The position numbers were made by a program, and so were the translations under genes. Shown here in pieces: positions 2,211-45,626 of a stretch of 64,000 nucleotides of DNA. The stretch covers positions 124,001 to 188,000 of the forward strand of contig CAJJAP010000005.1 of assembly GCA_905182185.1 (NCBI GenBank), given 5' to 3'. The notes under the pieces were generated by a model. That model did no database searches. It was not told the DNA's origin and saw only the letters and a list, made by a program, of their open reading frames with translations. This stretch comes from an uncultured Candidatus Poseidoniales archaeon. Lineage in GTDB: Archaea > Thermoplasmatota > Poseidoniia > Poseidoniales > Poseidoniaceae. Numbering within the stretch: the stretch's first letter is position 1; each line of letters starts with the position of its first letter.

Positions 2211-2250
2211 TCGCAACATTAGTAAATAATTAGGCAAGGAGGGGAAATCA

Positions 2251-3543: not shown

Positions 3544-3702
3544 AAGAGAAACAAATACGCACGATTTCTATTTCATAGGTCGGCAACTGCGGCAAGGTTT
3601 TCGATTTCACATTATTTTGAGGAAGTTATGGGGATTGGAAGAGTCTACAAACGAATCAAAAAATTAAGCGCCTAAAAGACGGTGTTTTCAAGGCTCAGTG
3701 TC

Positions 3703-3770: not shown

Positions 3771-3790
3771 GGACATTGAGGTGAACTGGA

Positions 3791-4258: not shown

Positions 4259-4274
4259 TATGGAGGGATAAGTT

Positions 4275-8505: not shown

Positions 8506-8595
8506 GAAGACTCCCCAGTATTGCTACTAAAAGCAACAGAAAAGGGTAAATCACAGATAAGGCGGTTTGATAAGTTCACCGTCCTTGCAACAAGT

Positions 8596-11352: not shown

Positions 11353-11353
11353 T

Positions 11354-14268: not shown

Positions 14269-15147
14269 ATGGGTAGAGAAATCTCCGTACGCTGTCCGGT
14301 GAGGATAGATTTAGCAGGGGGCTGGAGTGATGTTCCAGCGTATTGTAATATCAAAAGTGGAGAAGTGGTCAACGTTGCAATAAATCACTATGTGACTGCA
14401 AAAAAGGTGATCGACCAAAATAGAAAAATGACTGTTCAGTATTCAACCGAAACGCCAATTGGTTCTGGCCTAGGGACTTCGGGGGCGATGAATGTAGCTT
14501 TGTTAGCCGCTATTGCTGGAGAGGGAAAGGAACTTGGAGAAATCGCTGAGTTAGCCTTTCAATTTGAATCTCTATTAGGAAATACTGGTGGGCGCCAAGA
14601 CCAATGGGCCAGTGCATTTGGCGGCATTAATCATTTGACATTTAGAGGCGATGCGGTGGAGATTAAACGACTGAATCCCTCCATACAATTTTGTACATGG
14701 CTGCAAACGCATCTGCTATTATTTGACACCAATATTCAACATCTTTCTGGACAGATACATGACAATATCTGGCAAAAATTTCACAACCATGAGCAACAGG
14801 TAATACAAGGATTGGACCTGATAAGAGATGCTGGTTTAGCGATGGCTTCTGCTATAGATGACGAAGATAGTTCGCAAGTTGTCAATTCGATTAGAATGGT
14901 GATGTTAGGGATTGATCTAATCGATAAAAAATTACATGACCCGTTTCGTGAGACTTTGAACCCTTTAGAAGAAATTGGTTCCGTGTTGGCTTGGAAAGCA
15001 ATGGGGGCTGGAGGCGGGGGGATTGTAGGGGTATTAGTCAAAGATAGCGAGCATGCAAAATCGTCACTAATTCAAGCGACCGAGTTGGCAGGATGGGAAC
15101 ATTTGCAATGGGAAATTGAATACACGGGAATTGATCAACAATCGTGA
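14269..15147 (+). CDS. GHMP sugar kinase, HddA/fucose-kinase-like
   Basis: About 292 residues from the ATG at 14269 (MGREISVRCPVRIDLAGGWSD); the frame is open upstream to 14230. RIDLAGGWSDVP is the sugar-binding start of D-glycero-D-manno-heptose 7-phosphate kinases and related fucokinases. The phosphate loop is PIGSGLGTSGAMNVALLAA at about residues 70-88, and motif 3 is KAMGAGGGGIVGVL. GGRQDQWASAFGG fits the same subfamily. The substrate is probably a sugar or sugar phosphate for activated nucleotide sugars; which one cannot be told from sequence. No heptose isomerase or nucleotidyltransferase is adjacent. Confidence 0.75.
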   Translation: MGREISVRCPVRIDLAGGWSDVPAYCNIKSGEVVNVAINHYVTAKKVIDQNRKMTVQYSTETPIGSGLGTSGAMNVALLAAIAGEGKELGEIAELAFQFESLLGNTGGRQDQWASAFGGINHLTFRGDAVEIKRLNPSIQFCTWLQTHLLLFDTNIQHLSGQIHDNIWQKFHNHEQQVIQGLDLIRDAGLAMASAIDDEDSSQVVNSIRMVMLGIDLIDKKLHDPFRETLNPLEEIGSVLAWKAMGAGGGGIVGVLVKDSEHAKSSLIQATELAGWEHLQWEIEYTGIDQQS

Positions 15148-15148
15148 A

Positions 15149-29485: not shown

Positions 29486-30792
29486 TCACACTGGGCGGCC
29501 AACTGCATATGCCTTCCAGCCCTTGGAAGTCAGTTCATCTAAGTTCAGCACTCTGCGTCCATCATAGATGAGTGGGGTGCGCATTTGTTTTAGAAGCGCA
29601 GACCAATCGAGGTCAAGACATACTTTGTGAGCGGTAACAAGAACGGCCATATCGTAGCCTTTTGCGTCTGATATATCGGAAATCACTTCGATGCCTTCGG
29701 GGAACATTGTATCTTCTAAATGCGGGTCCCATGCACCAACAGAGATTCCTTTCGCCATCAAAGTCTCCGCCAAAGGCTCAGCGGGTGTTTCTCTTGGGTC
29801 GCCTACTTCTGCTTTGTATGACCAGCCGAGTAAGAGTACTTTGGCATCACTAGCAGGAACATCTGCATTCCACATCAAGTCGCTTAAGACACCAGCAACA
29901 TGGCTTGGCATCGAGCGGTTAACGGCTCGTGCTGCGGTAATCAATCCTGCAGGGACTCCGACATCAGCAGCTCGTTGAATCAGGTAATATGGGTCAACTG
30001 GAATACAGTGCCCTCCAACTCCAACACCAGGTGTATATCGATGGAAATTCCATTTGGTCGCTGCTGCTGATAATACATCTTCAACATCGACATCTAAGGC
30101 AGGGAAAATACGAGCAAGTTCGTTGACTAGGGCGATGTTGAGATCACGTTGAACGTTTTCGATAACTTTAGCAGCCTCAGCAACTTCGAGTTTGCCGACA
30201 TAGCGGACATCTTCAGTTGTTAATTTCGAATACAACTGAACGAGTCGTTCTCCGATTTCGGGATTTTCACAACCGATGACACGTGCGACTTGACGAACGC
30301 CGTGTGCAGGGTCGCCGGGATTGAATCGTTCAGGACAATAGGCAATCTCTAAATCTTCACCGATGACAAGTCCCAATTCTTCGATGATTGGATGCCAAGT
30401 TTGTGCAGTTACGCCCGGATAAACTGTTGATTCAAGAACGACTATCGTGCCAGAGCCTTTTGGAATCGCTTCAAAGACATCTCGACCAGCTCCAGCAACA
30501 TAGGAAAGATCGGGTTTGAGGTCATGGGTAATTGGTGTAGGAACGGTTACCAAAATAAAATCGCAGTGCGGTACTGCTTCTGCTGCAGAGTTGTAATGTG
30601 CCAATTAGGCGTACCTGGTGCTGGCATAATATCATCAACATCAGGGTCTCCTGTTGGATTTTTTCCTGCCCTGACCATGTCGACTGTGCGTTGAGACACA
30701 TCTACACCCCAGACTTCAAATCCGGCATCAAGAAAACCGATAGCCGTGGGTAAACCAACGTAACCCAATCCAATGATGCCGACCTTCTGCAT
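29486..30792 (-). CDS. wecC: UDP-N-acetyl-hexosamine (WecC-type) dehydrogenase, one frameshift
   Basis: The N-terminal NAD domain starts at ATG 30792 (MQKVGIIGLGYVGLPTAIGFLDAGF) and the frame breaks between about 30605 and 30575; the next frame continues SAAEAVPHCDFILVTVPTP to the end. The total length is one base short of a multiple of three. Motifs: GLGYVGLP dinucleotide site, STVYPGVT, YCPERFNPGD, and the catalytic cysteine in GVGVGGHCIPVDPYYL. It oxidises C6 of a UDP-HexNAc to the uronic acid using two NAD+. With WecB in the same locus it would give UDP-ManNAcA. The restored length of about 435 residues is normal. Confidence 0.85.
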
Positions 30793-30915
30793 GGTAAATG
30801 GCTTGAGGCGGGGGTTTTCAAGATAGTGGTGGGGATGGCGTTTGTGAGTCAAATACGGCAGATTAATTGCGATACCATCGCCGCCTTTATGTGCGCCGGC
30901 AAAATACCGCCTAAT

Positions 30916-31771
30916 ATGGAATCCGAACAAGGGATGGAACCACTTACTCCGTTATGGGGCAAGCGTCCGATAGTTCTGCTGCCTTTCATTGTCTTGAGAG
31001 ATGTGGTTCAAGCAAGGCATTTACTACGCTTATTGGTAAAACGCGACCTCACGGCCGATACAGAAGAGCCCACCTCGGCTATGCATGGTCTGTATTGGAA
31101 CCATTTTGCTAGCAATTGTGTATACTTTTTTGTTCACCATATTATTAGGTTCTACGATAGATCTCTACTCTGTTAAAATCATCATCGGGATTATCGGTTG
31201 GCAGCTTTTTGCTCGGTCAATTACCACTTCGACCCGTTCAATCAGCAGTTCTATTAATTTATTTCAATTTGCGAGAATACCCAAAACAGTCTTCGCCACA
31301 AGTAGCGTTACTGACCAACTATGTTCTCGCATAATTTCACTCACTTGTCTTATTCCATTTTTCTTCATCTATGACCTACCAATCTCCACTAGTCTAATTC
31401 TCGTACCATTCTGGCTCTTTGTGATTTGTTTCACTGGTTGGGGGATTGGATTGATGTTAGCCCCGATAGCCTGCAAGGTTCCAGACGTAATTAATTTGGT
31501 AAATTTCTTGGTCAGAGCAGGTTTTTTCCTATCTCCTGTAATGTGGACCTATGATATGTTCAGACGGTTTGGTGATGGGTGGCATTCCGTGGTTGCTCAC
31601 ATGAACCCAACGGTAGTCCCTATTACTGAAATGCGTGATGCGATTCTTGGAGAGAGTTCCAACATTCCCAACTATGGATACATGATGTGCTTCAGTGTAG
31701 CGATATTGGGATTCTTACTTGGTTCGATCATTTTTGAGCGAAAGGCACACAGTGCGGTGGTGAATGTATGA
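30916..31771 (+). pseudogene. ABC-2 type polysaccharide export permease (Wzm/TagG-like), two frameshifts
   Basis: Frame one from ATG 30916 reads ...ARHLLRLLVKRDLTA; adding one C at GGCC (about 31058) gives RYRRAHLGYAWSVLEP; adding one T at CCATTTTGC (about 31106) gives FLLAIVYTFLFTILLG and the frame runs to 31771. Both lost bases are in homopolymers. The restored 285-residue protein has six hydrophobic helices and the typical R-D-L-x-x-RY-R-x-S/A-x-LG-x-x-W-x-x-L-x-P motif of Wzm permeases. Its stop overlaps the ATPase start (ATGA). Listed as pseudogene because the frame is broken here; sequencing error is likelier. Confidence 0.72.
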
Positions 31772-33352
31772 CTACAGCAATGGAAATCGTCAATCTTTCT
31801 CTTGAATATCCGATGCCACGGAAATATCGAAAAGAAAAAATATTGCCTTCTGGTGTTAGAAACATAACATCTCAATGTTGAGAAAGGGGAAGTCCTAGGC
31901 ATAATCGGGAGAAATGGTTCAGGCAAAAGTACACTTCTCAAACTCATGGCAGGAGTTTTTCCCCCAGATTCCGGAACAATCTCGATTCGGGGAAGCGTTT
32001 CGTTCTTGCCGGGGTCGGTGTAGGCTTTCACAAGGATCTCACTGGTAGAGAAAATGCATATTTGTATGGTGCCTTGATGGGCAGGAGACAAACTGAAATT
32101 GATCGACTTATCGATGAAATTCAAGACTTTGCAGAATTGGCTCACCATTTTGACCGTCCGTTGCGAACGTATTCATCAGGTATGAAGTCGAGGCTTGGAA
32201 TCTCTGTTGCCACAGCATTTAAGCCAGATTTCTTGTTAATCGATGAAGTACTTGGCGTAGGGGATGCTTGCGTTTAGGGAGAAAAGTCAATCAAAGGTTA
32301 AAGAATTAATCAAAGATTCTGGATCAGTCGTGATTGTTTCTCATTCGATGGGTTTACTCAAGTCAATCTGTACAAAATTATTAGTTTTAGAAAATGGAGA
32401 GATTGAACATTACGGAGATGTTGAATCTGGAATGAAAAAGTATGCCAAACTCATGAAGGCCCCTCATCCTGAACCAAGAACAAAATCTAAATTGCAAGTT
32501 GTATCCGATAAACCATCCTTCAAAAAATGTATCGAAGACAGTATCCATTTATGGAAAAGTGCCCCGAAATCCCCGCGTTCTCAACTTATATCAAAATTGA
32601 GGAAAAAAATCCCAATCAAACGATTTATGGATACATTTATTCCGGTAAAATCCCTAAACCTAGGAACATTTAGCCGAATTACAGAAGTTGATTTTTCAAT
32701 TCTTCCTGACCAATTTGTCATTAAACCTCAGAGTGGTGCATCAAATAATGGTGTTTTTGTTTTACAAAGAAATACTGATGGCACATATTTTGATAGTATG
32801 AGAAGAAAAACATATACAGAGATTGAGATTGTGGATGCTTATCTCGATGAATTCAAACGTTTCAATCGATACTCTCCAATCTACATCGAAGAGCGTTTTA
32901 ACTCTGCCAATCCGAAATATTCGGTTCCTTTGGATTACAAGGGATATTGTTTCGGGGGTAAAGTTGCACTGGTTATGCAACGAGATGTGAGTCAGGGCCG
33001 AGAGTACTCGAAGTGGAAGTTTGCATATTATACTCCCGACTGGAAGCCCCTTGGAGAGGTACGTATGGGTATTAATTACAGTGATGAATTAGAAGCTCCA
33101 AAAGAAGGAAGGGAAATTGTAGAAAAAATGGAGTATTTGGCATCGAAGTTACCATTCAAATTTTGTTCTATGGACATGTATAATACCGATCGAGGCGTTG
33201 CATTCGGTGAATGCACGATTCATCCAGGTGCGTACAAAAGTTTCTCAAAGGAATGGGATTTACTTCTCGGAGAATTATATTTGCAAGAGGAGGATTTTTC
33301 GGATGAACATATACTTGCTTTCTTAGATGAACACAAAAGTATCTTCGACTAA
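31768..33352 (+). pseudogene. Wzt-like ABC ATPase fused to a TupA-like ATP-grasp domain, three frameshifts in the ATPase part
   Basis: The ATPase half reads across three single-base indels (about 31880 extra T; 31995 missing T; 32270 extra T) to give Walker A GIIGRNGSGKSTLLKLMAG, signature YSSGMKSRLGISVA, Walker B FLLIDEVLGVGDAAFREK and the H-loop VIVSHS. From 32264 a single open frame continues from the ATPase into about 290 residues of an ATP-grasp domain: DQFVIKPQSGASNNGVFVL, PIYIEERF, DYKGYCFGGKVALV, FKFCSMDMYN and GVAFGECTIHPGA. This resembles TupA of teichuronopeptide synthesis. The normal Wzt C-terminal sugar-binding domain is absent. The net length, 1585 nt, fits one surplus base. Confidence 0.75.
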
Positions 33353-33355
33353 TAT

Positions 33356-35869
33356 TTATTTTAATAAATTATGATACACACCATCAAGGGTACCTGCGAC
33401 TATATTCCAGTCCCTGTGTTCACAAACCCACTCCCTGGCCTTAATTCCTAATTGATGTCTTAATTCCGAATCTTCAATTAATTTTGACAGATTTAATGCT
33501 AAATCATCTACATCTCCTTTTTCAAACAAAATACCTGTTTCTTGGTGAATAACGATCTCCCCCAATGCTGCAACATTCGACGATATAACGGCTTTCTGCA
33601 TGGCCATTGCCTCGAATGGTTTGAGCGGAGATACCATTTCTGTTACAGGCAAGGGAAGACGAGGGAAGGGAGCAATATCCACAATTGAATAATAATCTTC
33701 CACTTCTTCATGAGGGACTCTTCCGGTAAAAATTACATCATCATCCAAATCCAATTCACTACACAATGCCTGTAATTTTTCCATATATGCACCGTCACCA
33801 ACGATCATTAGTTTGAAAGGCGTTGTAATTTCTTTCTTAATCAATGGCAATGATTCGAGCAGAAGATCTAGTCCTTCATACGAAACAAGGCTTCCAATGT
33901 ATCCAAGAACGACTGCATCACGATTGATACCTAATTTCTCCTTTAAGATGAGATTTGGTGGGATTGGAATGAATCGTTTCGAATGCACGCCGTTAGGCAA
34001 GAAACCAACTTCATTTATCGCGGGGGAGCGTCTTTTCAATTCATCGGCTAATGCATGTGTAATTGCAAACACATAACTGGCATTCGAAGAAGACCTTACT
34101 TCCAAATTAGACATCATTTGAAAATATTCTGAGCCATGGAATTCGGGTTGTCGTGAGATACGAGTAATCTCCCATAATCCGCGTACTTCATAAATCGAAG
34201 GAATATTGAAGTGCTTTGCAACCGCATTTGCTACTAAACCGTTGAGATGATTTGAGGCTGCGTGAATAATTGAGGGGCGTAATTCGAGAACTAATTTTAC
34301 TAAATCTTCGGCATAGGCCTGTAAATATGCTGCTATGTTTATTTGCCCGTACCCCTTCTCTAATTCAATCAATCGATGATAGGGGATTTCATCAACAACT
34401 TGTAATTTACCTGTTGGTAAATCGTTCATTCCTTTCCGGTCATGGGGATAACCTCGTCGGGTCACAACTTGAACATCCCAGCCCACTTTTTTTACTCCCC
34501 GCATTAAACCGTGGGCTCTTGTTGCGTAGCCTCCGGAATTGTAAGGTAGACTGTTGTGGAGAAGATAGAGAACTCGACGAGGAATTGGTTGGAAGTCGGT
34601 TGTTTGAATCTTTAAAGATACCTTGAGCCCATGTTCTTTCAAATCTAATAAATCATTATAACCTCGAATCTTTGATACGATTCGAACGGATTTTGGATTA
34701 CCATATGTCTCTAGTATCTCAATCGCTTGAGTTATGTTTCCGAGATTGATATAGGCGTTTGAAACATGGATTGAGACCGTGTCAGAATATGTAGAAGCTG
34801 CCTCTAGAATTAATTCACCCCATTTTATGACTAAAGATGTGAGTGGCCTGTCGGCACTATCTTTGTGAATTCGAAGGGCATAACTGTAATTGTATCGTGC
34901 AATTCCTAAGTCCTCATCCATAGATTCGTAGAGCGTTTCCATGTATTCGCTGAGCATTGGCCAATCTGTGCCAAATTGGTCGTACTTGGGCTTTAGTTTT
35001 CCTTCAAGCAACATTTCTTTATGCAGTTCAGTTAAGTCATTCACCCATTCTGCTGTCTTTTCATCATGCTTGAATTTGGGATGGTGAAGGAGTTTGAGTG
35101 CATCGATGTAATCGCCTTTGCGCCTCAAAAAGACGACCATGGAACGCATTCCCCTGTGATCTGGCATGACAGTAAAAAAATTCTTTCCGAACCTTATGCC
35201 ATGCTCATAATCGATATCACCAAGCGCTCTGAGAGATGCCACGAAGAAATCTGAATTTGTTCGTTTTGAATAATCTCCCCTCAGCAAATATTCTTGCAGT
35301 CCTTGAAGAAGTTCTGAAACCGGACCAATCCCTTCAGAAAAAATGAGATCTTGTATTCTATCCCTAAGTTGATTCAATGTTCTATCACCCGTGTCAGCAA
35401 ATTCGATGAGGCCAAAATCATCATCGAAAGATGTCTCAAACTGAGTATAATCAATATTCTCAAAAATAGAATCATCAAAAGAATATATGAGGTTGGTCGC
35501 AAGTTCTTCCTCAATGCCCTCATCAATTCCTAGAAATTGGTTCAGCGTTTTATTTTTGTAAAATTCAATCGATTCCATTGCTCGTGGATCTTTCATTAGT
35601 TCTGGAAACTCTGTAACCATCGCTGCATATTTTGATGAATTTAGGCTACAAAGCGCTCGCAGATATGCTAAACGTATATCATTTCCAATCCCTGGAAATT
35701 TTTGAAAAATCTGAATCGAGGCAACAATATCGGAATGCACTCCTCTAGAATCTAAGTCTAATTCTAAAAAAGCCTTCTTCAGGTTTGTAGGTTTGTCAAA
35801 ATGAACAACCGCCAGTCGCACAACTGGGTTTGGGTTTCTACCTAACCTCCGTTTTGATAGAAAGTTCAT
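33356..35869 (-). CDS. Glycosyltransferase (GT4) with a long helical-repeat N-terminus
   Basis: An 837-residue protein. Residues of about 1-430 are all-helical and repeat-like (for example AFLELDLDSRGVHSDIVASIQIFQ, LRALGDIDYEHGIRFGK, VSNAYINLGNITQAIEILETYG), suggesting TPR-like protein contacts. The C-terminal 400 residues are a GT-B enzyme: VLYLLHNSLPYNSGGYATRAHGLMRG, IIHAASNHLNG, LGYIGSLVSYEGLDLLLESL, and the donor site IAPFPRLPLPVTEMVSPLKPFEAMAMQKAVISSNVAAL. It lies convergent with the ABC-ATP-grasp gene, 3 bp apart, and 9 bp downstream of wecB in the same direction. Confidence 0.82.
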   Translation of the reverse strand: MNFLSKRRLGRNPNPVVRLAVVHFDKPTNLKKAFLELDLDSRGVHSDIVASIQIFQKFPGIGNDIRLAYLRALCSLNSSKYAAMVTEFPELMKDPRAMESIEFYKNKTLNQFLGIDEGIEEELATNLIYSFDDSIFENIDYTQFETSFDDDFGLIEFADTGDRTLNQLRDRIQDLIFSEGIGPVSELLQGLQEYLLRGDYSKRTNSDFFVASLRALGDIDYEHGIRFGKNFFTVMPDHRGMRSMVVFLRRKGDYIDALKLLHHPKFKHDEKTAEWVNDLTELHKEMLLEGKLKPKYDQFGTDWPMLSEYMETLYESMDEDLGIARYNYSYALRIHKDSADRPLTSLVIKWGELILEAASTYSDTVSIHVSNAYINLGNITQAIEILETYGNPKSVRIVSKIRGYNDLLDLKEHGLKVSLKIQTTDFQPIPRRVLYLLHNSLPYNSGGYATRAHGLMRGVKKVGWDVQVVTRRGYPHDRKGMNDLPTGKLQVVDEIPYHRLIELEKGYGQINIAAYLQAYAEDLVKLVLELRPSIIHAASNHLNGLVANAVAKHFNIPSIYEVRGLWEITRISRQPEFHGSEYFQMMSNLEVRSSSNASYVFAITHALADELKRRSPAINEVGFLPNGVHSKRFIPIPPNLILKEKLGINRDAVVLGYIGSLVSYEGLDLLLESLPLIKKEITTPFKLMIVGDGAYMEKLQALCSELDLDDDVIFTGRVPHEEVEDYYSIVDIAPFPRLPLPVTEMVSPLKPFEAMAMQKAVISSNVAALGEIVIHQETGILFEKGDVDDLALNLSKLIEDSELRHQLGIKAREWVCEHRDWNIVAGTLDGVYHNLLK

Positions 35870-35878
35870 CTAATCACC

Positions 35879-36970
35879 CTAGAGTAAAAATTCAAGCAAT
35901 GATTGAACGCAACGTTCTGCAGTTTTACCGTCCCATAAATCAATGGTAATTTTCTTTCGCCGAGGCCCATCAATCACTCTTTTAATTTCTCGATGAAGGT
36001 TTTTAGGTTCACCCAAAACGTTTGTTCCTTCTGTAATGGTGATTGGACGCTCTGTATTCGGGCGTAATGTAATACAAGGAACTCCAAGCCATGTAGTCTC
36101 TTCTTGAATGCCACCGCTGTCGGTAACAACCATTCGGCTTTCATAGATGCATTTCATGAAATCAATGTACCCAAGGGGTTTGGTGATGTGAATGGATGGG
36201 TTTTGCTCAAGATTCTCGAATTCCCCCAGTGCTTCGATCCTTGCCTTTGTGCGGGGATGGATTGGCCAGATAATATCAAAACTTTTCGACATTGTTCTAA
36301 TTTCATCAAGCAAGATTGAAAGTTGCGAGGAATCGTCAACATTGCTCGGTCGGTGAAGAGTAATCACCACATGTTGGTCATGTTGAAGTTGAAGTGTTGC
36401 GAGGAACTTTGAATCGCGAACTTGATCAAGCATCGCAGTGAGGGTATCAATCATGATATTACCTACTCGAACGATCTTGTGTTTGGGTACTCCGGATGAC
36501 AATAAATGTTCATCCCCATCAGGAGATGGCGTCCAAAGAAGATTTGCTATGCTGTCGGTCAAGATACGGTTAATCTCTTCAGGCATGGTTCTGTCTCCGC
36601 TTCTCAGACCTGCTTCAAGATGAATTAGGGGGACTCCAAGCTTTACCGTTGCTAATGCGCATGCTACGGTACTGTTGATGTCGCCAATGACAACGGTGGC
36701 AGGTCGCTTTTTTAGTAATAATAATTCGTATTTCTCGAGAATTTTTGCAGTTTGGGCACCATGTGTACCACTTCCAACTTCAAGAGAATAATCCGGCTCG
36801 CCCATGCCGAATTGTTGCATAAAAACACCTGCCATTTCATGGTCGTAATGCTGTCCTGTATCGACGAGTATTGGTTCGAAATCTGGATGCTCTCGGAGCG
36901 CTCTCAGAAGTGGCGCAGCCTTCATTTGATTTGGTCGAGCGCCAACTACGATATGAATCATATGAGGCAT
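35879..36970 (-). CDS. wecB: UDP-N-acetylglucosamine 2-epimerase (non-hydrolysing)
   Basis: About 363 residues from the ATG at 36970 (MPHMIHIVVGARPNQMKAAPLLRAL); the frame is open to 37042. Key segments are VDTGQHYDHEMAG, VIGDINSTVACALA, HLEAGLRSGDRTMPEEINR, VITLHRPSNVD and TDSGGIQEETTWLGVPCITLRPNTERP, i.e. the catalytic Asp, Glu and His set of WecB. It converts UDP-GlcNAc to UDP-ManNAc, the WecC substrate. It forms a minus-strand pair with the TPR-GT4 gene, and is divergent from the QueC-like gene at 37055. Confidence 0.94.
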   Translation of the reverse strand: MPHMIHIVVGARPNQMKAAPLLRALREHPDFEPILVDTGQHYDHEMAGVFMQQFGMGEPDYSLEVGSGTHGAQTAKILEKYELLLLKKRPATVVIGDINSTVACALATVKLGVPLIHLEAGLRSGDRTMPEEINRILTDSIANLLWTPSPDGDEHLLSSGVPKHKIVRVGNIMIDTLTAMLDQVRDSKFLATLQLQHDQHVVITLHRPSNVDDSSQLSILLDEIRTMSKSFDIIWPIHPRTKARIEALGEFENLEQNPSIHITKPLGYIDFMKCIYESRMVVTDSGGIQEETTWLGVPCITLRPNTERPITITEGTNVLGEPKNLHREIKRVIDGPRRKKITIDLWDGKTAERCVQSLLEFLL

Positions 36971-37054
36971 GATTAATCCTAAATGCCATAGCATATGATG
37001 TTTACAGAGAAATAAAGGCTTAATCACTATATCCAAGAACAAAATGGCGTTGCT

Positions 37055-38350
37055 ATGAGGGTGGATGTGGTTGGAATACGCAGCACCCTGTATTGGACCT
37101 TTACTTTTGATGAAAATGATGGCAAATACACCGATAAGATCTCAATGATTGGCACGAAGTTCTCGAATGAACTGCCCAAAGGAATCACAATTGAACAAGT
37201 TCACCCCGATCATCTTGCTCTTATTGCTTTGTTAGTGTGCCACCCCTTTGTTGAGGATTCAGTCACTATCCCTTGGAATGTGAGTACTCGATTTGCTGAA
37301 TCCTGCGCCAAGATTTCAAAATATAATGTTGTTTTTGATGAGACCGGTTATAAATCATACATTCCATCACCGAATGCTCGGCCAGCACTTGCTTTTTCAG
37401 GTGGAGCAGACTCAACTGCGAGCCTCCTTGTGATGCCAGAAAATACCTTGTCCGTATTCATGGACCGGCCGTTGAAAAAAAAAGTTTCTATGTATAACAA
37501 ATCTGCGGCTTACGCAACCATCAAACATGCCAAGAAGTGTGGATTTGAAGTCCATGCCCTCGAGTGTGATGTCGAGTATGTTCGACAACCTCTTGGATTT
37601 CCAACTGACCTTGTTCCTTCGATTCCAATTATTGCACTTGCATCCAGTCATAACATTGATTCCATTGCGTTTGGAACAGTCATGGAATCCGCATATCGAA
37701 TTGGACATGAGAAGGCGAGGAACTATGCATCATCTCACCACTATCGGTTTTGGGGGCGAATGTTCCTAGCCGCTGGTTTGCCGCTCTATTTACCAGTTTC
37801 AGGTGTGAGCGAGGTTGGTACAAGTACCATCGTGTTAAATTCCTCTTTTCACCCATTTACCAGATCATGTATTCGAGGAGAGTGGCCCGAAGCGTGTGAA
37901 AATTGTTGGAAATGCTTTCGGAAAAATATGCTTGAAGCGAGAATAAAAGGAACGAAAATTGATGATGCGTATTTACTTCAAGGACTAGGCATTCCTGAAG
38001 TTCAAAAGAAAATGCAATCATTCCCTGTAAGTCATGAAAATGTACTGGCTTGGGCACTCGGAAAAAGCACTGGAAACACTTCACAAATAGTTTTACAACG
38101 CTTAGAAGGAAACCAGCGTAACCTCGAATTTCTTGAAACATTTTTCCCTGACGCATTTGAGTTGATGCCTGAACAGCATCGCTTGACAACAAAATCAAAG
38201 TTGGAACAATTTTTGATGCCAATGGAAGAACGTTTCTGGCCTGAAATCACTTCATACACCATGACGCCGTGGTTAGAATCGGATGCGGCAATTCAGGCAA
38301 AGAACAGATTTGACACATTCATGTCGACCCAATATCCAGCAAATCCATGA
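37055..38350 (+). CDS. QueC-like PP-loop ATPase, glycan-locus paralogue A
   Basis: A 431-residue protein of unknown function. The PP-loop AFSGGADSTASLLV places SGGADS at 115-120. A four-cysteine motif follows at C272, C281, C284, C287 (SCIRGEWPEACENCWKCF), spaced CX8CX2CX2C, the same arrangement as the zinc site of QueC (SCY.G...CG.C..C). Between them are GFPTD and DSIAFGT, shared with the paralogue at 39713. QueC makes an amide and then a nitrile from a carboxylate with ATP and ammonia. The 110-residue N-terminus and the 140-residue C-terminus are extra to QueC. Its context, beside wecB, suggests sugar carboxylate modification. The 3' end overlaps the next gene by 32 bp. Confidence 0.7.
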   Translation: MRVDVVGIRSTLYWTFTFDENDGKYTDKISMIGTKFSNELPKGITIEQVHPDHLALIALLVCHPFVEDSVTIPWNVSTRFAESCAKISKYNVVFDETGYKSYIPSPNARPALAFSGGADSTASLLVMPENTLSVFMDRPLKKKVSMYNKSAAYATIKHAKKCGFEVHALECDVEYVRQPLGFPTDLVPSIPIIALASSHNIDSIAFGTVMESAYRIGHEKARNYASSHHYRFWGRMFLAAGLPLYLPVSGVSEVGTSTIVLNSSFHPFTRSCIRGEWPEACENCWKCFRKNMLEARIKGTKIDDAYLLQGLGIPEVQKKMQSFPVSHENVLAWALGKSTGNTSQIVLQRLEGNQRNLEFLETFFPDAFELMPEQHRLTTKSKLEQFLMPMEERFWPEITSYTMTPWLESDAAIQAKNRFDTFMSTQYPANP

Positions 38351-39642
38351 TTGAATGAACGCCGTTCTCACTCGGTATTGGAATCGCAGTCATCTTGAGA
38401 AGTTCAGTGATTTTGTCCTCAATACTTTCCCCTCCTGGCAGATATACCGTTCCCCAGCCTTCCTTTTCAGATTCTTTACATCGAGCAACTTGATCGTCCA
38501 TTCCTGTCTCTATATTCGGAATAAACAAAGTCGGCACCCCAAACATTCGCATTTCTTGATACGAATTGTAACCCCCAGCTTGCACTGCGGCATCAAACCC
38601 ATGAGCATACAGAGCATTGGGGTAATCACGAATCACTCGTAGTCTATCATGAGTAAACATGAGACGTTCACCAAGCATAGATTCGCCTAGAACGACGTGA
38701 ATATCTGGATAAGCATAGAGCGCTTCAAGAACTTGTTTGAGAATATTCTCGATAGAATTTATACGGCCTGCTCCGAGTTGAACATAGACCACTTTACCAT
38801 TCTCAGGAATCGAAAGGCGCGAACGAGCAAAGGAACGGTCCCATGCATCATTAGGTTCGATGGCTATAACAGGTGCAACGACATGAGTGGTCACCCTCTG
38901 ATTGAACCCCTTCCTCCTCGCTGGGAACAATAACTCCATCAAAGAAAGAAAAGCTATCTACTGGCACGCTTTTACTCTTTTTTATTGATCCGCGACGCAT
39001 CCACCATTTCTTCATATGGGGTTGTGAAGCAATTGCATTGAGCATTCCTCTGTAAGGAAAGGCACCATCAAACATAAACCATTTTGGACGGTGCATATCA
39101 AACACCATATGGAGCATGTCCTCGACGAGACCATTCCACTGTGAAGCACTCATATTGGCATGCTTATATCTGCCTGCAAGGTGATAAGTTGGAAATTGTT
39201 CATTGTACAGAATATGAAGAGTTGGCATCGGAGTAAAGAAAACAATTTCCAATGAAGGATCTTCTTTGCGTAATGCCCTTGCCAACGCATACATGCGAGT
39301 GAAATGTCCAAAACCGACTCCATTCGTTGGAAACAATACAATGCAGTGATTCCGTTCAGGCTCGTCGACCTCCTCTATCGCATTCTCAGAGAGTATTGGG
39401 CGGCGACCAATCCGTTGTAATCCTAGTTTTAAAGTGAGAACTGGGAACGAAATTGGCAGAATCAATAATCTCCAAGGCCTTCGTACCACTGAAGTGAGAT
39501 GAACTCCTAACTGAAAAGATACAGTGGAACGTAAACGTTTCACCTCCCGTTCTTTTCGCTTAAGTTGAATCTTTAATCGTTCATTATTTGAGATGGAAGA
39601 TTCTTTTGAAGAAAGAATGGCTTCATCTTCACTCTCCCCCAT
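38319..39642 (-). CDS. MurG/GT28-like glycosyltransferase, one frameshift
   Basis: The N-terminal fragment (start 39642) has a charged coiled-coil stretch (NNERLKIQLKRKEREVKRLR), then HCIVLFPTNGVGFGHFTRMYALARALRK, the glycine-rich acceptor site of GT28/UDP-glycosyltransferases. The frame breaks at a GGGG run at about 38909. Removing one G gives EEEGFNQRVTTHVV and continues into VVYVQLGAGRI...NALYAHGFDAAVQAGGYNSYQEMRMFGVPTLFIPN, a donor-binding C-terminal domain. The combined length is one base over a multiple of three; the restored protein is about 440 residues. It sits between the two QueC-like genes. Confidence 0.75.
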
Positions 39643-39712
39643 GCTAAAGGGTCATAACCTCACCTTCTTGATATTTCGGAATGATTAAACAATTTCTTAT
39701 GCATTGTAATGA

Positions 39713-41149
39713 TTAATCAGGGGCAAAGAGATTCACTGATTCAAGCAGATAAGGTTGGTCCATCATAGAAAGATACTTCATCGTATTTGTTTTAATAATT
39801 TCACGTAATTGTTCTGAAATAAGTTTTAAGCCAGGTTCGTATATTTGAACCCACCAAGAAAGGTCTTCTTTGAGATAAGGTGCGAGATGTTCGACAAGAT
39901 GTTCGAACTCTTGCACCTGTATTGCCCAAAGCGCATGTTGTGCAGAGCGAAGAGGTCTTTTCATGAGAAACGTTTGAATTTCCCGGCTCGTAGGGTCTAC
40001 CGGTCGGCCTAATGGCCCATTTTTATGAAAACATTTCCAACATCTACCGCATCCTTGGCCATTTTTTCCGCGCAAACAGGAATTGATTGATTCATTGAGT
40101 GAACTCTGTTCGCAAATACGTAGAGCGCCAGCCTCGCTAATATGATTTATTGGAAGTTCCAATTTGAGTCCTGCGTGTGCAAACCGGTTTGACCAATATA
40201 TCCAATGATTTGATAGAGAAAAGTCCCTATATTCCAATCCTTTATTTAACCAGGTATTATCAATCGGTGTACCAAATGCAATGTGGCCGATATCTAAATG
40301 ATCTGCGAGAAGTATTAGGTGAGATCCTGCGGCGTAATCCGTAGAAAATCCTATCGGTTTCTGGTGATGCGTGCGAATTAATTCATGATTTGATGGCACC
40401 GTAAGTATTGAACGTTTCTTGATATCATTCCACACTTGAAATAATTGATGCTGGTTTTCATGGTTTATCATTGAATAAAAAGAACGTTCATGGTATGCCA
40501 ACAAAGTCTCTTCGGGCATCAATAATGCTGCTGCTGAAGAATCTGCCCCTCCTGAATAGGATAGAGAAATTTCTTTCCCATCGGGTCTCTTTTCAGTTTT
40601 AATAGATTTTACCTGTGATAAAAACGGACGGAGTAAGGTTTCCATCACCAATTCTAAAAGACTTGGGTGGGTGTGTTTGATATCATAGTTTTCTGGCATA
40701 TCCCAGTACGTCCACCCCCATGGATGGCGCAACCAAACACGCGTATCTTCTTGGTACCAATTTGACAGTAAATCAGTCTCATTCCATGACGATTGTGCAA
40801 AAGAGACAGGTTCCGGTTCCCTGGAAGTTAAATCCTCAAGATACTTTCCTGTAGCTGTTTTGAAAGCGTTCTTTTCAATAGCTCGTACCTTGTAGCCATT
40901 AGTGTCTAATTCAGGCCATTTTTCCGCCAAACTAATTACACGACCCCATTTAGATTCATTCCAGTAGCTGCGGATAATAATACTTCGAGAAAGTTGGTTG
41001 TTAAATGGGCAATTAATTTCATTCAAAGCGTATTTCCTAGCTGCCTCCCATTTCCCTTTATTGTATAATCTACGAATACGTAAAAGTCGAATTTTTGCTG
41101 CTATTGAACTAAATCTTTTAGCCCAACCAATATTCAAATAACCGGGCAT
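39713..41149 (-). CDS. QueC-like PP-loop ATPase, glycan-locus paralogue B
   Basis: A 478-residue protein related to the 37055 gene. SLSYSGGADSSAAALL puts SGGADS at 199-204; C358, C367, C370, C373 (SCLRGKNGQGCGRCWKCFHKN) have the identical CX8CX2CX2C spacing. Shared blocks are KPIGFSTD, IGHIAFGTPID and ISEAG. Its N-terminal 150 residues are helical and TPR-like (LYNKGKWEAARKYALNE), unlike paralogue A, and recall the N-terminus of the TPR-GT4 at 33356. The function is unknown; a metal-dependent ATP pyrophosphatase acting on a sugar or lipid carboxylate is inferred. It is on the same strand as the MurG-like gene, 70 bp upstream. Confidence 0.7.
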   Translation of the reverse strand: MPGYLNIGWAKRFSSIAAKIRLLRIRRLYNKGKWEAARKYALNEINCPFNNQLSRSIIIRSYWNESKWGRVISLAEKWPELDTNGYKVRAIEKNAFKTATGKYLEDLTSREPEPVSFAQSSWNETDLLSNWYQEDTRVWLRHPWGWTYWDMPENYDIKHTHPSLLELVMETLLRPFLSQVKSIKTEKRPDGKEISLSYSGGADSSAAALLMPEETLLAYHERSFYSMINHENQHQLFQVWNDIKKRSILTVPSNHELIRTHHQKPIGFSTDYAAGSHLILLADHLDIGHIAFGTPIDNTWLNKGLEYRDFSLSNHWIYWSNRFAHAGLKLELPINHISEAGALRICEQSSLNESINSCLRGKNGQGCGRCWKCFHKNGPLGRPVDPTSREIQTFLMKRPLRSAQHALWAIQVQEFEHLVEHLAPYLKEDLSWWVQIYEPGLKLISEQLREIIKTNTMKYLSMMDQPYLLESVNLFAPD

Positions 41150-41223
41150 AATTTATCGACTTGTTATTTCTATATATTGATTTTTAATACCCGATGCCAA
41201 GATTCCCCTTCATGGGAGGAGGC

Positions 41224-42184
41224 ATGCCTCAACTACTCATCACCGGGGGTGCTGGATTTATCGGAAGCAATTTCGCTAAAACTTCCATCAACCGAGGATG
41301 GAAAGTTAGGATTTTAGATAATCTTTCAACAGGATTACAAAGTATTGCTGATGAATTAGAATTGAATGGTGCTGAAATCATAATCGGCGATATTCGGGAT
41401 GAATTATTACTCGATCAGGCCATTGAAGGGTGTGATGCTGTAGCCCATTTAGCAGCTCAAGTATCCGTTCCACTTTCTGTTTCTAATCCCGAAGAAACAA
41501 TGAGTATCAATGTTGATGGTACATCGAAAGTTATCGCAGCATGTCTCAAACACGGTGTTAAACGACTGGTAATAGCTTCAAGCGCTGCTGTTTATGGCGA
41601 AGCGGAAAGTCTTCCTCTCAAGGAAGAGGATGCTGGCCAAGTTCTCTCGCCCTATGCCGAATCAAAATGGGAAAATGAAACACAAATTTTGATGCTAGAA
41701 AAAACGGTCTTCATGCAACCGCATTGCGCTTTTTCAATGTCTATGGCGTGGTCAAAGACCCGATGGCGCATATGCTGCAGTAATCCCCAAAGTTTGCAGA
41801 TATGATGGCGCAGGGGATTGTCCCTCAACTCAATGGTGATGGGTTGCATACGCGTGACTTTGTTCATGTGCATGATGTGTGTGCAGGCCATTTATTCATT
41901 GATTGAAGGTGATTGGAAAGCAGATACAATTTCATGTCTACAATGTAGCAACTCAAACAAAAATTACTCTGCTAGAATTGGTGGAAGCGATCAATACTTC
42001 TCTAAGTTCATTCTTACCCGATTATATTCACATTTCTCCCGCACATGGGCCCGAACGGGTAGGAGATATTCGCCATTCTATGGCCAGTATTGAACGGATT
42101 CAAAGCACCCTGGATTGGAGTCCTAAAGTTGGTTTTGAAGAAGGTATCAAAGGCTTATTACAAGAACGATTGAATCTAAACTAA
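41224..42184 (+). pseudogene. NAD-dependent sugar-nucleotide epimerase/dehydratase, about five frameshifts
   Basis: Intact up to about 41700: MPQLLITGGAGFIGSNFAKTS (Rossmann GxxGxxG), IGDIRD, VAHLAAQVSVPLS, SSAAVYGE and YAESK (catalytic Tyr/Lys). It then needs single-base edits at about 41704 (A6 to A7, giving NGLHATALRFFNVYG), 41747, 41800, 41905 and 41930, after which GHLF...LIEGDWKADT and FHVYNVATQTKITLLELVEAI follow to 42184. The net length agrees with these edits. The order is that of GalE/WbpP-type 4-epimerases. The density of errors in 250 bp is the highest in the window. Confidence 0.7.
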
Positions 42185-42196: not shown

Positions 42197-43303
42197 ATGC
42201 AGATATATTGGTTCACTGGGCGTTCCTTGAACGACCTATGTTCCACAACTCAAATTGCACTTGCTACTGGTTTGAATCAACGTGGATACCCTGTAACATT
42301 CATCAATGCTGATTCACCTGATAGCCATGCAGCACACCCTTGGAAACATCAACCAATGTCTGCAAAGGCACCACGAGGTCTTCAATCGCGGACTCTCGCC
42401 AAAAAAATGCGTTCATGGTTATTAGAAAATGAAATTGGTTCAGACTCAGTTGCTTTACTCGATTGGAGAATTGCTAAGTATCTGATTCCAATACTTCAAC
42501 AACGAAAAATAAAATGGATAATAATTGATAGAGGCCCTCCTGCTGATAAGGGAATCCTTTCATTGTTACAATGGCCATCTTGGAAGCGAAGTTGGAAATA
42601 TGTGAAAACAAATCCCTCAGGTCATGGGTGTGTTGTTTCGGAAGAACACCGCAACTTTGTGCATAAGAAAACGGGTGTTTCGCTTTCATCTATCACCGTT
42701 TTACCTGCTGGAGTGGATTTGGATAGATTCAAAACCAATGATGGCTTTCAAAAATTAACACTTGTTTATCATGGAAAATTAGACCGTAACCGCGGTGTTT
42801 TGTTATTACCAACGTTAATAAAAATGGCAAAGGATACTGGAATCGATTTATGTTTGAAAATGATTGGAGATGGTGATGCGTTTGATAGTTTGGAATTTAT
42901 GGCTCAACAGTATGATGATTTGGAGATTCATCACTCATTAGCCCAAGATGAGTTGGCTCAACTACTCTCGCAATGTCATATTGGTTTGTTACCAATGCCC
43001 GAGTCAAAAGTTTGGACATTAGCAAGTCCCTTGAAACGAAGCGAATATGCTGCATCCGGATTGGCAATCCTTGGGATAGATCACAGCGGTCATCGCTTAG
43101 AGGATGGCGAAGTTGAATGGATGAAGTTGCTTAGCCAGGAACAATTTTTGTCAGAGGGTGTCAATTGGTTGAAGATGCTTGCAGATGATAATTCAAAACT
43201 TGAACAATTAAATCTTGAAGCAAGAAGATACGCTGAAGAACATATGTCTTGGAGTCATTCCATAGATGCCCTTGAAAATATTCTCAAATCTGTTTCTCGA
43301 TAA
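42197..43303 (+). CDS. GT4-family glycosyltransferase
   Basis: A 368-residue GT-B protein. MQIYWFTGRSLNDLCSTTQIALATGLNQRG opens the acceptor domain; the donor domain begins LTLVYHGKLDRNRGVLLLPTLIKMA and holds CHIGLLPMPESKVWTLASPLKRSEYAASGLAILGI, the usual E-rich donor site. It is 12 bp after the epimerase and would be co-transcribed. It overlaps the convergent GT4 by 20 bp. Confidence 0.83.
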   Translation: MQIYWFTGRSLNDLCSTTQIALATGLNQRGYPVTFINADSPDSHAAHPWKHQPMSAKAPRGLQSRTLAKKMRSWLLENEIGSDSVALLDWRIAKYLIPILQQRKIKWIIIDRGPPADKGILSLLQWPSWKRSWKYVKTNPSGHGCVVSEEHRNFVHKKTGVSLSSITVLPAGVDLDRFKTNDGFQKLTLVYHGKLDRNRGVLLLPTLIKMAKDTGIDLCLKMIGDGDAFDSLEFMAQQYDDLEIHHSLAQDELAQLLSQCHIGLLPMPESKVWTLASPLKRSEYAASGLAILGIDHSGHRLEDGEVEWMKLLSQEQFLSEGVNWLKMLADDNSKLEQLNLEARRYAEEHMSWSHSIDALENILKSVSR

Positions 43304-44300
43304 GTTGCTCATATATTTGCAACCATTTTTGCTGGACATTTTCAATTTCATATTCAACTAATTGCTGTGAATAATCAATATTTGAAGAATTAGATTTTAT
43401 TGTTTCAAGGATATTATCAACCCACTGTTGTTTGTTTTCAAGTGATGCCTTGCCAATATTATCTGGCAATTGTGCAAGTTCACTATTAGCAATAACCGCT
43501 AAACCACAGGCCATCGCTTCTAAAATCACCAGCGGTTGTCCTTCCCATTTACTAGGTACTAGTAAGATGTTTGAGTTATGTAGATTGTCACTTTTTTCCT
43601 GTTCACTAATCCACCCCATTGCATTAATCCAATCTTCTTCACTATTGTCAATCCCACTCATTGAAAGAGTAATTTTTGGATTTACTTTTCTGGCCATTGT
43701 TGCAACCTCAATTGCGAAAGCATGACCTTTTACTGGGTCTTTTCTACCGAGCAACAATAGTTTTCCCTCAATTCTCTCAATTGTAGAATCCATCTTGAGG
43801 TTTGGATTGACTGGATTAGAAATAACTTCAACATCACCGATCATCGGCTCCAATATTGCTTTCCATTCATCGCTTAATACAACTGTTTGCACTTTTTGTT
43901 GCGATAGAAATGATTTCATCTTCTTTGCTCTCTTTGCCCTCGGAGAATTCGCTCCACTGGGGTCGAGCCAAGTATTGAATTTGCCACTATGAATATGGAT
44001 GACTGTCGCTATATTGGCTTGCCTTGCTTTGAGGGCAAAGCGCTTTTTCCGATACCAAGACCAGTCAGCTGCAGTATGAATGTGAACAACATCTGGCTTG
44101 CTATCTGGGTTAGAAATGATTTGAGATAAATCCTTTATCGCTTTCCTATAAGCCTTCCATTTGCTAATTACAGAACCGGTATTATGGCTAGACAATAATG
44201 ATGCTTCAAAACCAGTTGGAGGGTTGTTTGATAAATCCAACATGACATTTTTCATGCCACCATTAGACTCACACGGGCCAATATGTAGTACCCGTCTCAT
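43284..44300 (-). CDS. GT4-family glycosyltransferase
   Basis: About 338 residues from MRRVLHIGPCESNGGMKNVMLDLS (ATG 44300; the frame is open to 44393). The acceptor domain has DVVHIHTAADWSWYRKKRF; the donor domain has KLLLLGRKDPVKGHAFAIEVATMA and NILLVPSKWEGQPLVILEAMACGLAVIANSELAQLPDN, the classical GT4 EX7E region. It is divergent from the GT2 gene at 44406. Confidence 0.87.
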   Translation of the reverse strand: MRRVLHIGPCESNGGMKNVMLDLSNNPPTGFEASLLSSHNTGSVISKWKAYRKAIKDLSQIISNPDSKPDVVHIHTAADWSWYRKKRFALKARQANIATVIHIHSGKFNTWLDPSGANSPRAKRAKKMKSFLSQQKVQTVVLSDEWKAILEPMIGDVEVISNPVNPNLKMDSTIERIEGKLLLLGRKDPVKGHAFAIEVATMARKVNPKITLSMSGIDNSEEDWINAMGWISEQEKSDNLHNSNILLVPSKWEGQPLVILEAMACGLAVIANSELAQLPDNIGKASLENKQQWVDNILETIKSNSSNIDYSQQLVEYEIENVQQKWLQIYEQLIEKQI

Positions 44301-44405
44301 ATTGTGAGGCAATCTGTCTTGCAATCTAAAGATGTAAGGAGATTTGGTGTTTTTTGCTATGTTTTTAGGCAAGGACTCAAAGCACAATTGCATTTCAAGG
44401 TAAGC

Positions 44406-45626
44406 ATGGTGCTGGCTCCAATGTTGATTGAAGCAAGCCTATGGCTCGCTGCAACAATGCCTTTTGCCCGTCATTGGTTGGCGATGAGGAATTGGGATAA
44501 AATTGAACTTCAATATCCTGAAAATCCGAAAATAGAATCGGATAAGTGTGTAATTTTGCTGCCAGTTTGGAATGAATCTTTGATTATTGAAAAGAAGTTA
44601 AGCAATCTATCAAAACAATTTGCAGGGCCATATCACCTCATCATAATCGATTCAAATTCAACAGATAACACTGTATCTCTTTGCAATCAATGGATTGATA
44701 ATAATTCAAATGCCTTTTCTTCTTTTCAATTGATTGAGATGCCAGTAAGATTGGGAAAAACTACTGCAGTAGCAGCGGCGATTGATGAAATCCAAGCAGA
44801 AAACAATTTCGAATATATTTGCATGACCGATGCTGATGCAACTTTATCGCCTAAAGCCATCAATAGATTGCTTGGATGGTTTAGTGATGGGACAATTGGT
44901 GCGGTGGGCGCACTACCAAGAAGAATCGGTTCTAGGAGCGAAGAAACAACACACAGGAAAACATTCGATGCATTGCGGGTGGCAGAATCAAAAGCAGATA
45001 GTACTCCATTCCTAGAAGGATCTTGCATGATTTGGCGCACTGAACTTGTATCTTCATCGGATTTGAATACCAGGGCGAATGCTGATGATGCACAAATCGC
45101 TACTGCGGTTCGCCTTCAAGGATTACGCAGCATCGTTGATGAAAATGTTTGGTTTGAGGATATGGCCCCACCGACCCTAAAGGGGCAAAGGCGTCAGAAA
45201 ATTCGCAGAGGTCAAGGATTACAAAGACTTCTCCTCAGCAAACGTTCTAGGTTTTTTGATAAAAAATTAGGAGTTTTTTCAACAATCCTCAGAAGGGAAG
45301 CATATTTCCACATAGCATCTCCACTGTTGTATGGTGGTTTTGTGGTTGCAGCGGCTACTCGTTGGGTTACTATTGCGATTGCGGGATATCCAACAGGATC
45401 ATTATCGACCATACACAACGTCTTTACAGTTTTAGAATTGATTAGTATAATAGCTTGGATGAATGGCCGCTTTGGATTAAAAATACCATATCTCTCACCA
45501 TTTGATACTGTTTATTCAGGTAGCGAGATATTACTATTATCCCTGGTCAAATCATCACGAGGACAATCACTGCACATGTGGCAACAACATAGTGATGTTA
45601 GAGAACTCCTAGGAAAGAAAGATTAG
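44406..45626 (+). CDS. Membrane GT2-family glycosyltransferase
   Basis: About 406 residues from MVLAPMLIEASLWLAATMPFARHW (ATG 44406 with aaggt upstream; the frame is open to 44304). The GT-A core has VILLPVWNESLIIEKKL, LIIIDSNSTDNT, RLGKTTAVAAAIDEI, CMTDADATLSPKAI (DxD) and PFLEGSCMIWR. A Q..R.RR-like segment (QRRQKIRRGQGLQRLLL) precedes C-terminal membrane helices. Members of this class extend polymers or add sugars to lipid carriers at the membrane. It is the last recognised gene of the polysaccharide locus. Confidence 0.84.
   Translation: MVLAPMLIEASLWLAATMPFARHWLAMRNWDKIELQYPENPKIESDKCVILLPVWNESLIIEKKLSNLSKQFAGPYHLIIIDSNSTDNTVSLCNQWIDNNSNAFSSFQLIEMPVRLGKTTAVAAAIDEIQAENNFEYICMTDADATLSPKAINRLLGWFSDGTIGAVGALPRRIGSRSEETTHRKTFDALRVAESKADSTPFLEGSCMIWRTELVSSSDLNTRANADDAQIATAVRLQGLRSIVDENVWFEDMAPPTLKGQRRQKIRRGQGLQRLLLSKRSRFFDKKLGVFSTILRREAYFHIASPLLYGGFVVAAATRWVTIAIAGYPTGSLSTIHNVFTVLELISIIAWMNGRFGLKIPYLSPFDTVYSGSEILLLSLVKSSRGQSLHMWQQHSDVRELLGKKD

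Follow-up and report, generated by a model that had tools for sequence, protein, structure and literature searches.

Two neighbouring genes in a 64,000-nucleotide stretch of DNA from an uncultured Candidatus Poseidoniales archaeon (assembly GCA_905182185.1, contig CAJJAP010000005.1, positions 124,001 to 188,000; hereafter the window) encode related proteins, P0001 and P0002, of the Pfam family DUF6395 (PF19932). In the literature library that we searched, no paper names 'DUF6395' or 'PF19932'. QueC, the enzyme that the two proteins most resemble, is 7-cyano-7-deazaguanine synthase, a tRNA-base enzyme that converts 7-carboxy-7-deazaguanine (CDG) to preQ0. Our analysis makes it very likely that DUF6395 is a QueC-fold family acting in surface glycans, and both its fold and its glycan role are strongly supported. 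The best single reading of its reaction, to which we give slightly better than even chances, is amide formation on an N-acetylhexosaminuronic acid (HexNAc-uronate). DUF6395 thereby gains a fold, a likely reaction class, a position in a pathway and a near-constant partner.

DUF6395 proteins have a QueC-like core

A first-pass annotation of the window had singled out two open reading frames (ORFs), about twice the size of QueC, with an SGGADS PP-loop and a CX8CX2CX2C motif, and had taken them for paralogues. Both are present as described:

37055 to 38350, plus strand: P0001, DUF6395 clade A, QueC-like PP-loop enzyme of 431 amino acids (Pfam PF19932, 1.5e-39; AlphaFold2; tree)
37397 to 37414, plus strand: SGGADS PP-loop of P0001, residues 115-120, its S and D aligned to those of QueC
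37868 to 37915, plus strand: CX8CX2CX2C of P0001, presumed zinc site (C272, C281, C284, C287)
39713 to 41149, minus strand: P0002, DUF6395 clade B, QueC-like PP-loop enzyme of 478 amino acids with a tetratricopeptide repeat (TPR)-like N-terminus (Pfam PF19932, 1.4e-20)
40538 to 40555, minus strand: SGGADS PP-loop of P0002, residues 199-204
40031 to 40078, minus strand: CX8CX2CX2C of P0002, presumed zinc site (C358, C367, C370, C373)

In both proteins the cysteine motif lies in an SC(I/L)RG...CxxCWKCF context, and both reading frames are open, unlike those of several neighbours. P0001 and P0002 are true paralogues, with 75 of 258 positions identical by BLASTP (29%; E 1e-33), far above what chance would give. 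Their scores of 136.2 and 74.5 bits exceed the gathering score of PF19932 (25 bits), and their scores against the QueC family PF06508 (12.5 and 13.6 bits) fall below its gathering score of 22 bits. A scan of the two proteins with NCBIfam gave no model above its cut-off, and a scan with PADLOC gave no family at E up to 1. The N-terminal 115 residues of P0002-type proteins form a TPR-like module that weakly resembles TPR segments of glycosyltransferases from the same gene islands.

A tree of 94 DUF6395 domains, built by a quick method that leaves some deep forks open, comprises clades A, B and C and a few long-branch members. P0001 belongs to clade A together with the named bacterial strains (Priestia plasmid, Oceanirhabdus, Halobacillus, Alkalithermobacter, Glycomyces and a deltaproteobacterium), and P0002 belongs to clade B.

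We used predicted structures and profile comparison to place the fold. The AlphaFold2 model of P0001 has a pLDDT of 95.9 and a pTM of 0.93; a Foldseek search with the full-length model placed the PP-loop enzymes TilS, LarE and TrmU on top, none at E up to 0.001. With the P0002 core model (residues 188-390; pLDDT 88.2), the best PDB match was Bacillus subtilis QueC (3bl5; E 1.5e-5, TM 0.61-0.64), followed by Cap9 (9nto; 4.9e-5). A profile of 41 DUF6395 proteins matched one built from 16 QueC proteins of archaea along 160 columns, with both motifs among them (E 9.5e-6, probability 82.7). PDB sequence searches were uninformative with P0001 and returned only loop-region or chance matches with the profile A2. 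Because of the Foldseek and profile matches, a predicted PP-loop fold for DUF6395, with QueC as the nearest solved core, is well supported. The QueC arrangement proposed at first pass is supported for the core fold and the cysteine site; by sequence both proteins stay below the Pfam QueC cut-off.

The ATP half of the active site is conserved

We aligned 16 QueC and 40 DUF6395 cores under two MAFFT settings. The serine and aspartate of the loop and all four cysteines aligned to their QueC counterparts in every one of the 40 DUF6395 cores, five of which have SAGTDS in place of an SGGADS-type loop. Clade C is represented by a single row (L113) in the 40- and 41-row alignments; in a wider set of 50 proteins, ten of them from clade C or on long branches, the loop serine and aspartate were each kept in 49 proteins and the four cysteines in all 50. 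The lysine of the QueC motif TKAE is replaced by glutamate in 40 of 40 cores. DUF6395 also has conserved residues of its own (in P0001 numbering R138, E174, R177, G181, F182, G207, E253, S271, R274, K286, F288 and K290), invariant in 41 rows and kept in 47 to 50 of the 50 proteins of the wider set.

An excerpt of Libby et al. (PMC13329287) reports that Y35, R99, Y131 and Y189 of Escherichia coli QueC are required in vivo. Since the QueC-essential residues are kept in none of the 40 DUF6395 cores, the substrate should differ from that of QueC. Judged from the alignments, DUF6395 has kept the ATP half of the site and rebuilt the substrate half. A like remodelling of the substrate site is described for QatC in the excerpted text of Gao et al. 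(PMC13279940).

DUF6395 genes lie mainly in glycan loci, mostly near a GT-B transferase

To describe the genomic setting of the family we counted 79 loci, in which neighbours were assigned by greedy ORF calling and BLAST clusters built in this analysis. Containment reduced 152 loci to 86. Manual curation then removed L001 (a match of the QueC search), L074 (only a sub-cut-off match) and the overlapping or near-repeat loci L122, L123, L131 and L049, and L005 (Nonomuraea) was lost because the ORF caller picked an overlapping frame; near-identical loci from different genomes were kept (for example, L043/L081, L037/L087 and L100/L105). At least one of eleven defined glycan gene clusters was present in 73 of the 79 loci and at least two in 67, so that homologues do lie mainly inside glycan loci. 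Six loci lack these clusters (L004, L112, L065, L068, L069 and L072); of these, L004, from Priestia, has sugar genes by annotation, and L112, from Glycomyces, encodes a fused glycosyltransferase family 2 (GT2) domain.

The near-constant partner is a gene cluster that we call c1. Its profile matches glycosyltransferase structures, including UDP-dependent ones (best 5.9e-5), and identifies it as a GT-B glycosyltransferase; one bacterial member matched MurG (2.7e-14) and PseG (1e-7), both below the model cut-offs. We detected c1 in 24 of 32 genomes that have DUF6395 and in 1 of 45 DUF6395-negative genomes hand-picked from those searched (Fisher 4e-12); the profile used (A4) was made from DUF6395 neighbours and is biased to finding c1 near DUF6395. 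In the eight DUF6395 genomes in which it was missed, the DUF6395 genes found lie about 1.2 kb or less from a contig end. Within 10 kb, c1 accompanies DUF6395 genes of clade A in 33 of 39 cases, of clade B in 26 of 38 and of clade C in 14 of 18; among genes with at least 1.5 kb of sequence on both sides, the counts are 24 of 26, 21 of 23 and 12 of 13.

Several DUF6395 domains are fused to sugar-polymer enzymes. In four scanned clade C proteins (892 to 1208 amino acids), DUF6395 is C-terminal to a GT2 domain, and ten clade C proteins reach at least 892 amino acids (L066 and L131 are one contig, counted once). In Glycomyces DUF6395 lies on the N-terminal side of GT2, and LicD is the fusion partner in one clade B-like protein.

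We also recorded features of individual loci. On the Priestia plasmid, two copies of the GT-B partner and a dehydrogenase surround DUF6395 (L153:1-1155, 2043-3134 and 3131-4453), and spore coat genes adjoin the region. Downstream of DUF6395 in the Priestia locus L004 is a gene of the GXM family (2657-3265; PF21729, 1.2e-45). GXM is a glucuronoxylan methyltransferase, which hints at a uronic acid at this single locus, through a neighbour and not a homologue. DUF6270 (PF19786) proteins occur near DUF6395 both in archaea (L139:3471-4181) and in Glycomyces (L112:5465-6205).

Neighbouring genes point to HexNAc-uronate pathways

The first-pass annotation had proposed a sugar carboxylate as the substrate, and the genes for HexNAc and uronate pathways beside DUF6395 support this. 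Among the 36 clade A genes with a defined upstream neighbour, this neighbour is the UDP-GlcNAc 2-epimerase WecB in 10 and a short-chain dehydrogenase/reductase (SDR) in 16, together 26 of the 36. In a tree of the SDRs, 15 of 16 from the A side (all but L098) and 21 of 21 from the B side group in clades of their own. Six of seven A-side SDRs scanned were best matched by TviC (E 4e-80 to 2e-95, below the cut-off of 760 bits) and the one from L098 by GalE; when two of the six TviC-like proteins were compared with the PDB, WbpP and WbgU were among the best matches. In all four Bacillota, the DUF6395 cluster contains a nucleotide-sugar dehydrogenase above the TIGR03026 cut-off, for which UDP-ManNAc dehydrogenase models were next best, below their cut-offs. 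The Alkalithermobacter dehydrogenase matches Cap5O and HexNAc-uronate dehydrogenase structures, and there dehydrogenase, GT-B transferase and DUF6395 form a compact three-gene set.

The A/B pair of the window is recurrent, not obligate. Two DUF6395 clades occur together in 15 of the 79 loci; most loci show one gene in the available stretch, and many contigs are short. Six of the counted loci, among them the window, show the arrangement A, c1, B with WecB next to A (L035, L043, L045, L047, L079 and L081, of which L043 and L081 are nearly identical in sequence, as is the dropped L049). L048 has A and B in a different order, and B and C occur together in eight loci (L051, L052, L057, L066, L120, L121, L128 and L132). 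In the bacteria seen, a lone clade A gene is the rule. Because P0001- and P0002-type genes adjoin different kinds of epimerase, the pair probably treats two different sugars, with one transferase gene in the window common to both.

Two other candidates for a constant partner, both raised at first pass, were rejected: WecB, which stands beside 10 of 39 clade A genes, and the ATP-grasp cluster c35, present in three loci.

The gene island around the window pair

The pair sits in an island of sugar and export genes:

29486 to 30930, minus strand: nucleotide-sugar dehydrogenase, WecC-like, in two frames with a break near 30590
31085 to 33352, plus strand: ABC-2 permease, pieces of an ABC ATPase and a TupA-like ATP-grasp protein
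33356 to 35869, minus strand: GT4 glycosyltransferase of 837 amino acids with an N-terminal extension
35879 to 37042, minus strand: WecB, non-hydrolysing UDP-GlcNAc 2-epimerase (TIGR00236), head to head with P0001
38319 to 39642, minus strand: GT-B glycosyltransferase (cluster c1; tblastn), the shared partner, with a frameshift near 38886
41194 to 42166, plus strand: SDR nucleotide-sugar enzyme, head to head with P0002, with a frameshift near 41700
42197 to 45626, strand not assigned: three more glycosyltransferases (GT4, GT4, GT2)

WecB, which the first-pass annotation had named beside the pair, scores 295 bits against TIGR00236 (8.3e-88; cut-off 210). The glycosyltransferase that it described as flanked by the pair does lie between the two genes, as a single gene that a frameshift has broken into two ORFs (38851-39642 and 38319-38942); by tblastn these match a relative's intact protein in two frames at 69%. 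The WecC-like and SDR genes are also frameshifted, and the ABC ATPase (31768-32452), with a probable frameshift near 32268, is probably a fourth such gene. The window copy of the SDR being split, we judged its clade in the SDR tree from its relatives. A DegT aminotransferase gene also lies near the pair.

Distribution of the family

DUF6395 was matched in 33 of 389 genomes of the window's phylum sample, 32 of them above the cut-off. In the phylum sample around Alkalithermobacter, 1 of 398 genomes was above the cut-off and one further was marginal, and in that around Glycomyces DUF6395 was present in 2 of 396; both counts include the centre genome, itself picked for having DUF6395. The Priestia plasmid homologue is 36% identical to P0001 over 98% of its length, and further homologues occur in Oceanirhabdus, Halobacillus, Alkalithermobacter, Glycomyces and a deltaproteobacterium.

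Three contigs carry Opitutia or Gammaproteobacteria labels (L089, L140 and L145), yet have gene orders and close protein relatives like those of Marine Group II, and are probably misbinned. An actinomycete locus (L213, genome G1156, about 6700-11700) holds four tandem DUF6395 genes between a GT2-like gene, called by eye and by BLAST, and an ABC ATPase gene. A divergent DUF6395 gene is present in two viral contigs of about 220 kb (L151 and L152), adjoined in L151, the contig inspected, by SDR sugar genes; a search of phage records gave no match at E up to 1e-3.

Proposed amide formation on a HexNAc-uronate and its alternatives

On the reading that we favour, P0001 and P0002 would be QueC-fold, probably zinc-binding enzymes that use ATP, releasing AMP and pyrophosphate. 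DUF6395 would activate the C6 carboxylate of an N-acetylhexosaminuronic acid, which may be N-acetylmannosaminuronic acid (ManNAcA) where WecB adjoins and of the N-acetylgalactosaminuronic (GalNAcA) or N-acetylglucosaminuronic acid (GlcNAcA) type where a TviC/WbpP-like epimerase adjoins. Ammonia or a small amine would then convert the activated carboxylate to an amide, and the neighbouring GT-B transferase would add or extend the amidated residue in the surface glycan. The analysis establishes the family, the fold, the conserved ATP loop and cysteine site and the linkage to the GT-B partner and to glycan genes, whereas zinc binding, adenylation, the uronate substrate, the amide product and the order of the steps are inferred.

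Uronamides are already known in surface polymers, according to excerpts of two studies (PMC6025236, PMC7468200). In Pseudomonas aeruginosa and Helicobacter pullorum, the first of these ties WbpO, WbpP and WbpS to HexNAc-uronamide, in WbpO-WbpP-WbpS or WbpO-WbpS sets (PMC6025236). By analogy, DUF6395 may fill the place of WbpS in a similar gene set, and a uronamide would be its simplest product.

Several results weigh against amide formation on a uronate. The positions of Y35, R99 and Y189 (the last taken as the tyrosine of SCY) hold other residues in 40 of 40 DUF6395 cores, and those of the QueC motif YPDC are gapped in all 40, a placing that is uncertain because the region aligns as a gap. 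With essential residues replaced or gapped, QueC chemistry is not transferable by homology alone. QueC was also not among the 50 PDB matches listed for full-length P0001. For all four B-side SDRs that were scanned, the best model is GalE, with scores below its cut-off, so a uronate is not indicated on the B side. Across whole genomes the dehydrogenase shows only mild enrichment (present in 23 of 32 genomes with DUF6395 against 13 of 45 without it; inside a single family, 20 of 29 against 8 of 20, p 0.08), and 20 of 39 clade A genes have it no more than 10 kb away. In the Nonomuraea locus (L005), outside the count, no glycan genes are evident by eye near DUF6395 (14968-16179); its neighbours look like what we take to be an M55 peptidase and an FAD amine oxidase. 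Since the shared transferase, the dehydrogenase and the SDR of the window are frameshifted, the pathway may be broken in this genome, or there may be errors in the assembly. Finally, an AsnB-like gene, of an amide-forming family, is present in five fetched loci, four of them with clade A; it would be redundant if it made the same amide, leaving another step or substrate for DUF6395.

The AsnB-like proteins of these loci (L087, L088, L089, L093 and L138) have an unusual SSGYDS loop. Three of them, scanned with NCBIfam, are weakly like eps_aminotran_1; one was scanned with Pfam.

The alternative that survives best, though still unlikely, is that the uronic acid carboxylate is joined to a larger amine (an amino acid, an amino sugar or a protein N-terminus), in the manner of Cap9 and not of QueC. 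Cap9, ranked second among the PDB matches of the P0002 core, makes amides of this kind on proteins, according to excerpts of two papers (PMC13279940, PMC13329287). TilS, which has lysine as its nucleophile, tops the full-length P0001 search, and the GT2 and LicD fusions suggest work on a polymer. However, we noticed no gene for amine supply in the recurrent neighbour clusters, where no search aimed at one was made, and the TupA-like ATP-grasp cluster occurs in just three loci.

DUF6395 could instead convert an N-acetyl to an acetamidino group, taking the part of WbpG or PseA through an independent branch of PP-loop enzymes. The superfamily is the same, with a tetracysteine site and an N-acetylated sugar context in which WecB and the DegT aminotransferase gene are close by. 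We nevertheless regard this as quite improbable, and the WbpG-like alternative that the first-pass annotation had kept in reserve has lost ground. Neither window protein matched the WbuX/WbpG model TIGR03573 at E up to 1, and among 99 relatives there were 11 partial matches, none above the cut-off. The motif published for these enzymes, CXXCXn[GN]XCXXC in an excerpt of PMC10607449, differs from CX8CX2CX2C, and no such amidotransferase is named among the 50 PDB matches listed for the P0002 core.

A bolder and similarly improbable proposal is that DUF6395 is a new class of sugar-carboxyl enzyme, whose A- and B-types, each with its own kind of epimerase and a GT-B partner, would make different carboxyl-derived groups on one surface glycan, one of them new to surface polymers, either a nitrile or an amide formed with an unusual amine.

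Very doubtful, in our view, is action on something different from a carboxylate, such as a nucleotide or a lipid-linked intermediate, or a role as accessory subunits of the GT-B transferase. The tight pairing with the GT-B gene fits this, as do the B-side SDRs, which are GalE-like and not clearly uronate enzymes, but the ATP loop and about 20 more residues are invariant in the aligned cores, which argues for catalysis.

Least probable of all is conversion of the carboxylate to a nitrile by two ATP turns, as in QueC, or to a thiocarboxylate or thioamide: the core fold and cysteine spacing of QueC, the sulfur-inserting LarE and NcsA among the PDB matches of the P0002 core, and an AsnB-like gene that could make the amide and leave the second step to DUF6395 speak for this step of the first-pass proposal, but the replaced and gapped QueC-essential positions leave it without specific support, and four cysteines at QueC spacing are unlike the three-cysteine [4Fe-4S] site described for LarE in an excerpt of PMC13329287.

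Two further roles were rejected. Queuosine or archaeosine synthesis is served elsewhere in the genomes, with PF06508 matches in 141 of 145 phylum-sample genomes, 140 above the cut-off; the window's own incomplete genome has a single, weak match (1.4e-4). An anti-phage role as QatC was set aside on the absence of any match at E up to 1 in PADLOC, which should include a QatC model.

DUF6395 would represent a further use of the QueC scaffold, besides nucleoside synthesis and anti-phage defence, and a possible route to uronamide-type sugars that does not involve AsnB. It also offers a testable entry into the surface glycans of Marine Group II archaea.

Comparison with known systems

QueC and DUF6395 share the Rossmann-like PP-loop core, an SGGxDS loop and CX8CX2CX2C in an SCxRG context. 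DUF6395 differs in falling below the PF06508 cut-off, in lacking the QueC-essential residues, in its extra N- and C-terminal parts and in its glycan gene neighbours. The QueC-family anti-phage proteins Cap9 and QatC have the same core, and QatC, as excerpts of PMC13279940 and PMC13329287 describe it, resembles DUF6395 in being extended at both termini and in having its substrate site remodelled; DUF6395 is set apart by its glycan context and by giving no PADLOC match.

WbpG, PseA and LpNASAT (TIGR03573) also combine a PP-loop with a tetracysteine site and act on surface sugars, but their cysteine motif, as given in the excerpt of PMC10607449, is a different one, and DUF6395 does not match their model. 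Enzymes of the WbpG/PseA kind work with HisH/HisF-type ammonia partners. The uronamide synthases WbpS and WbqG belong to the AsnB family, whereas DUF6395 has no glutaminase or Asn_synthase Pfam match at E up to 1. In the gene sets outlined in excerpts of PMC6025236 and PMC7468200, DUF6395 would take the same slot as these synthases, beside a HexNAc dehydrogenase and a WbpP-type epimerase.

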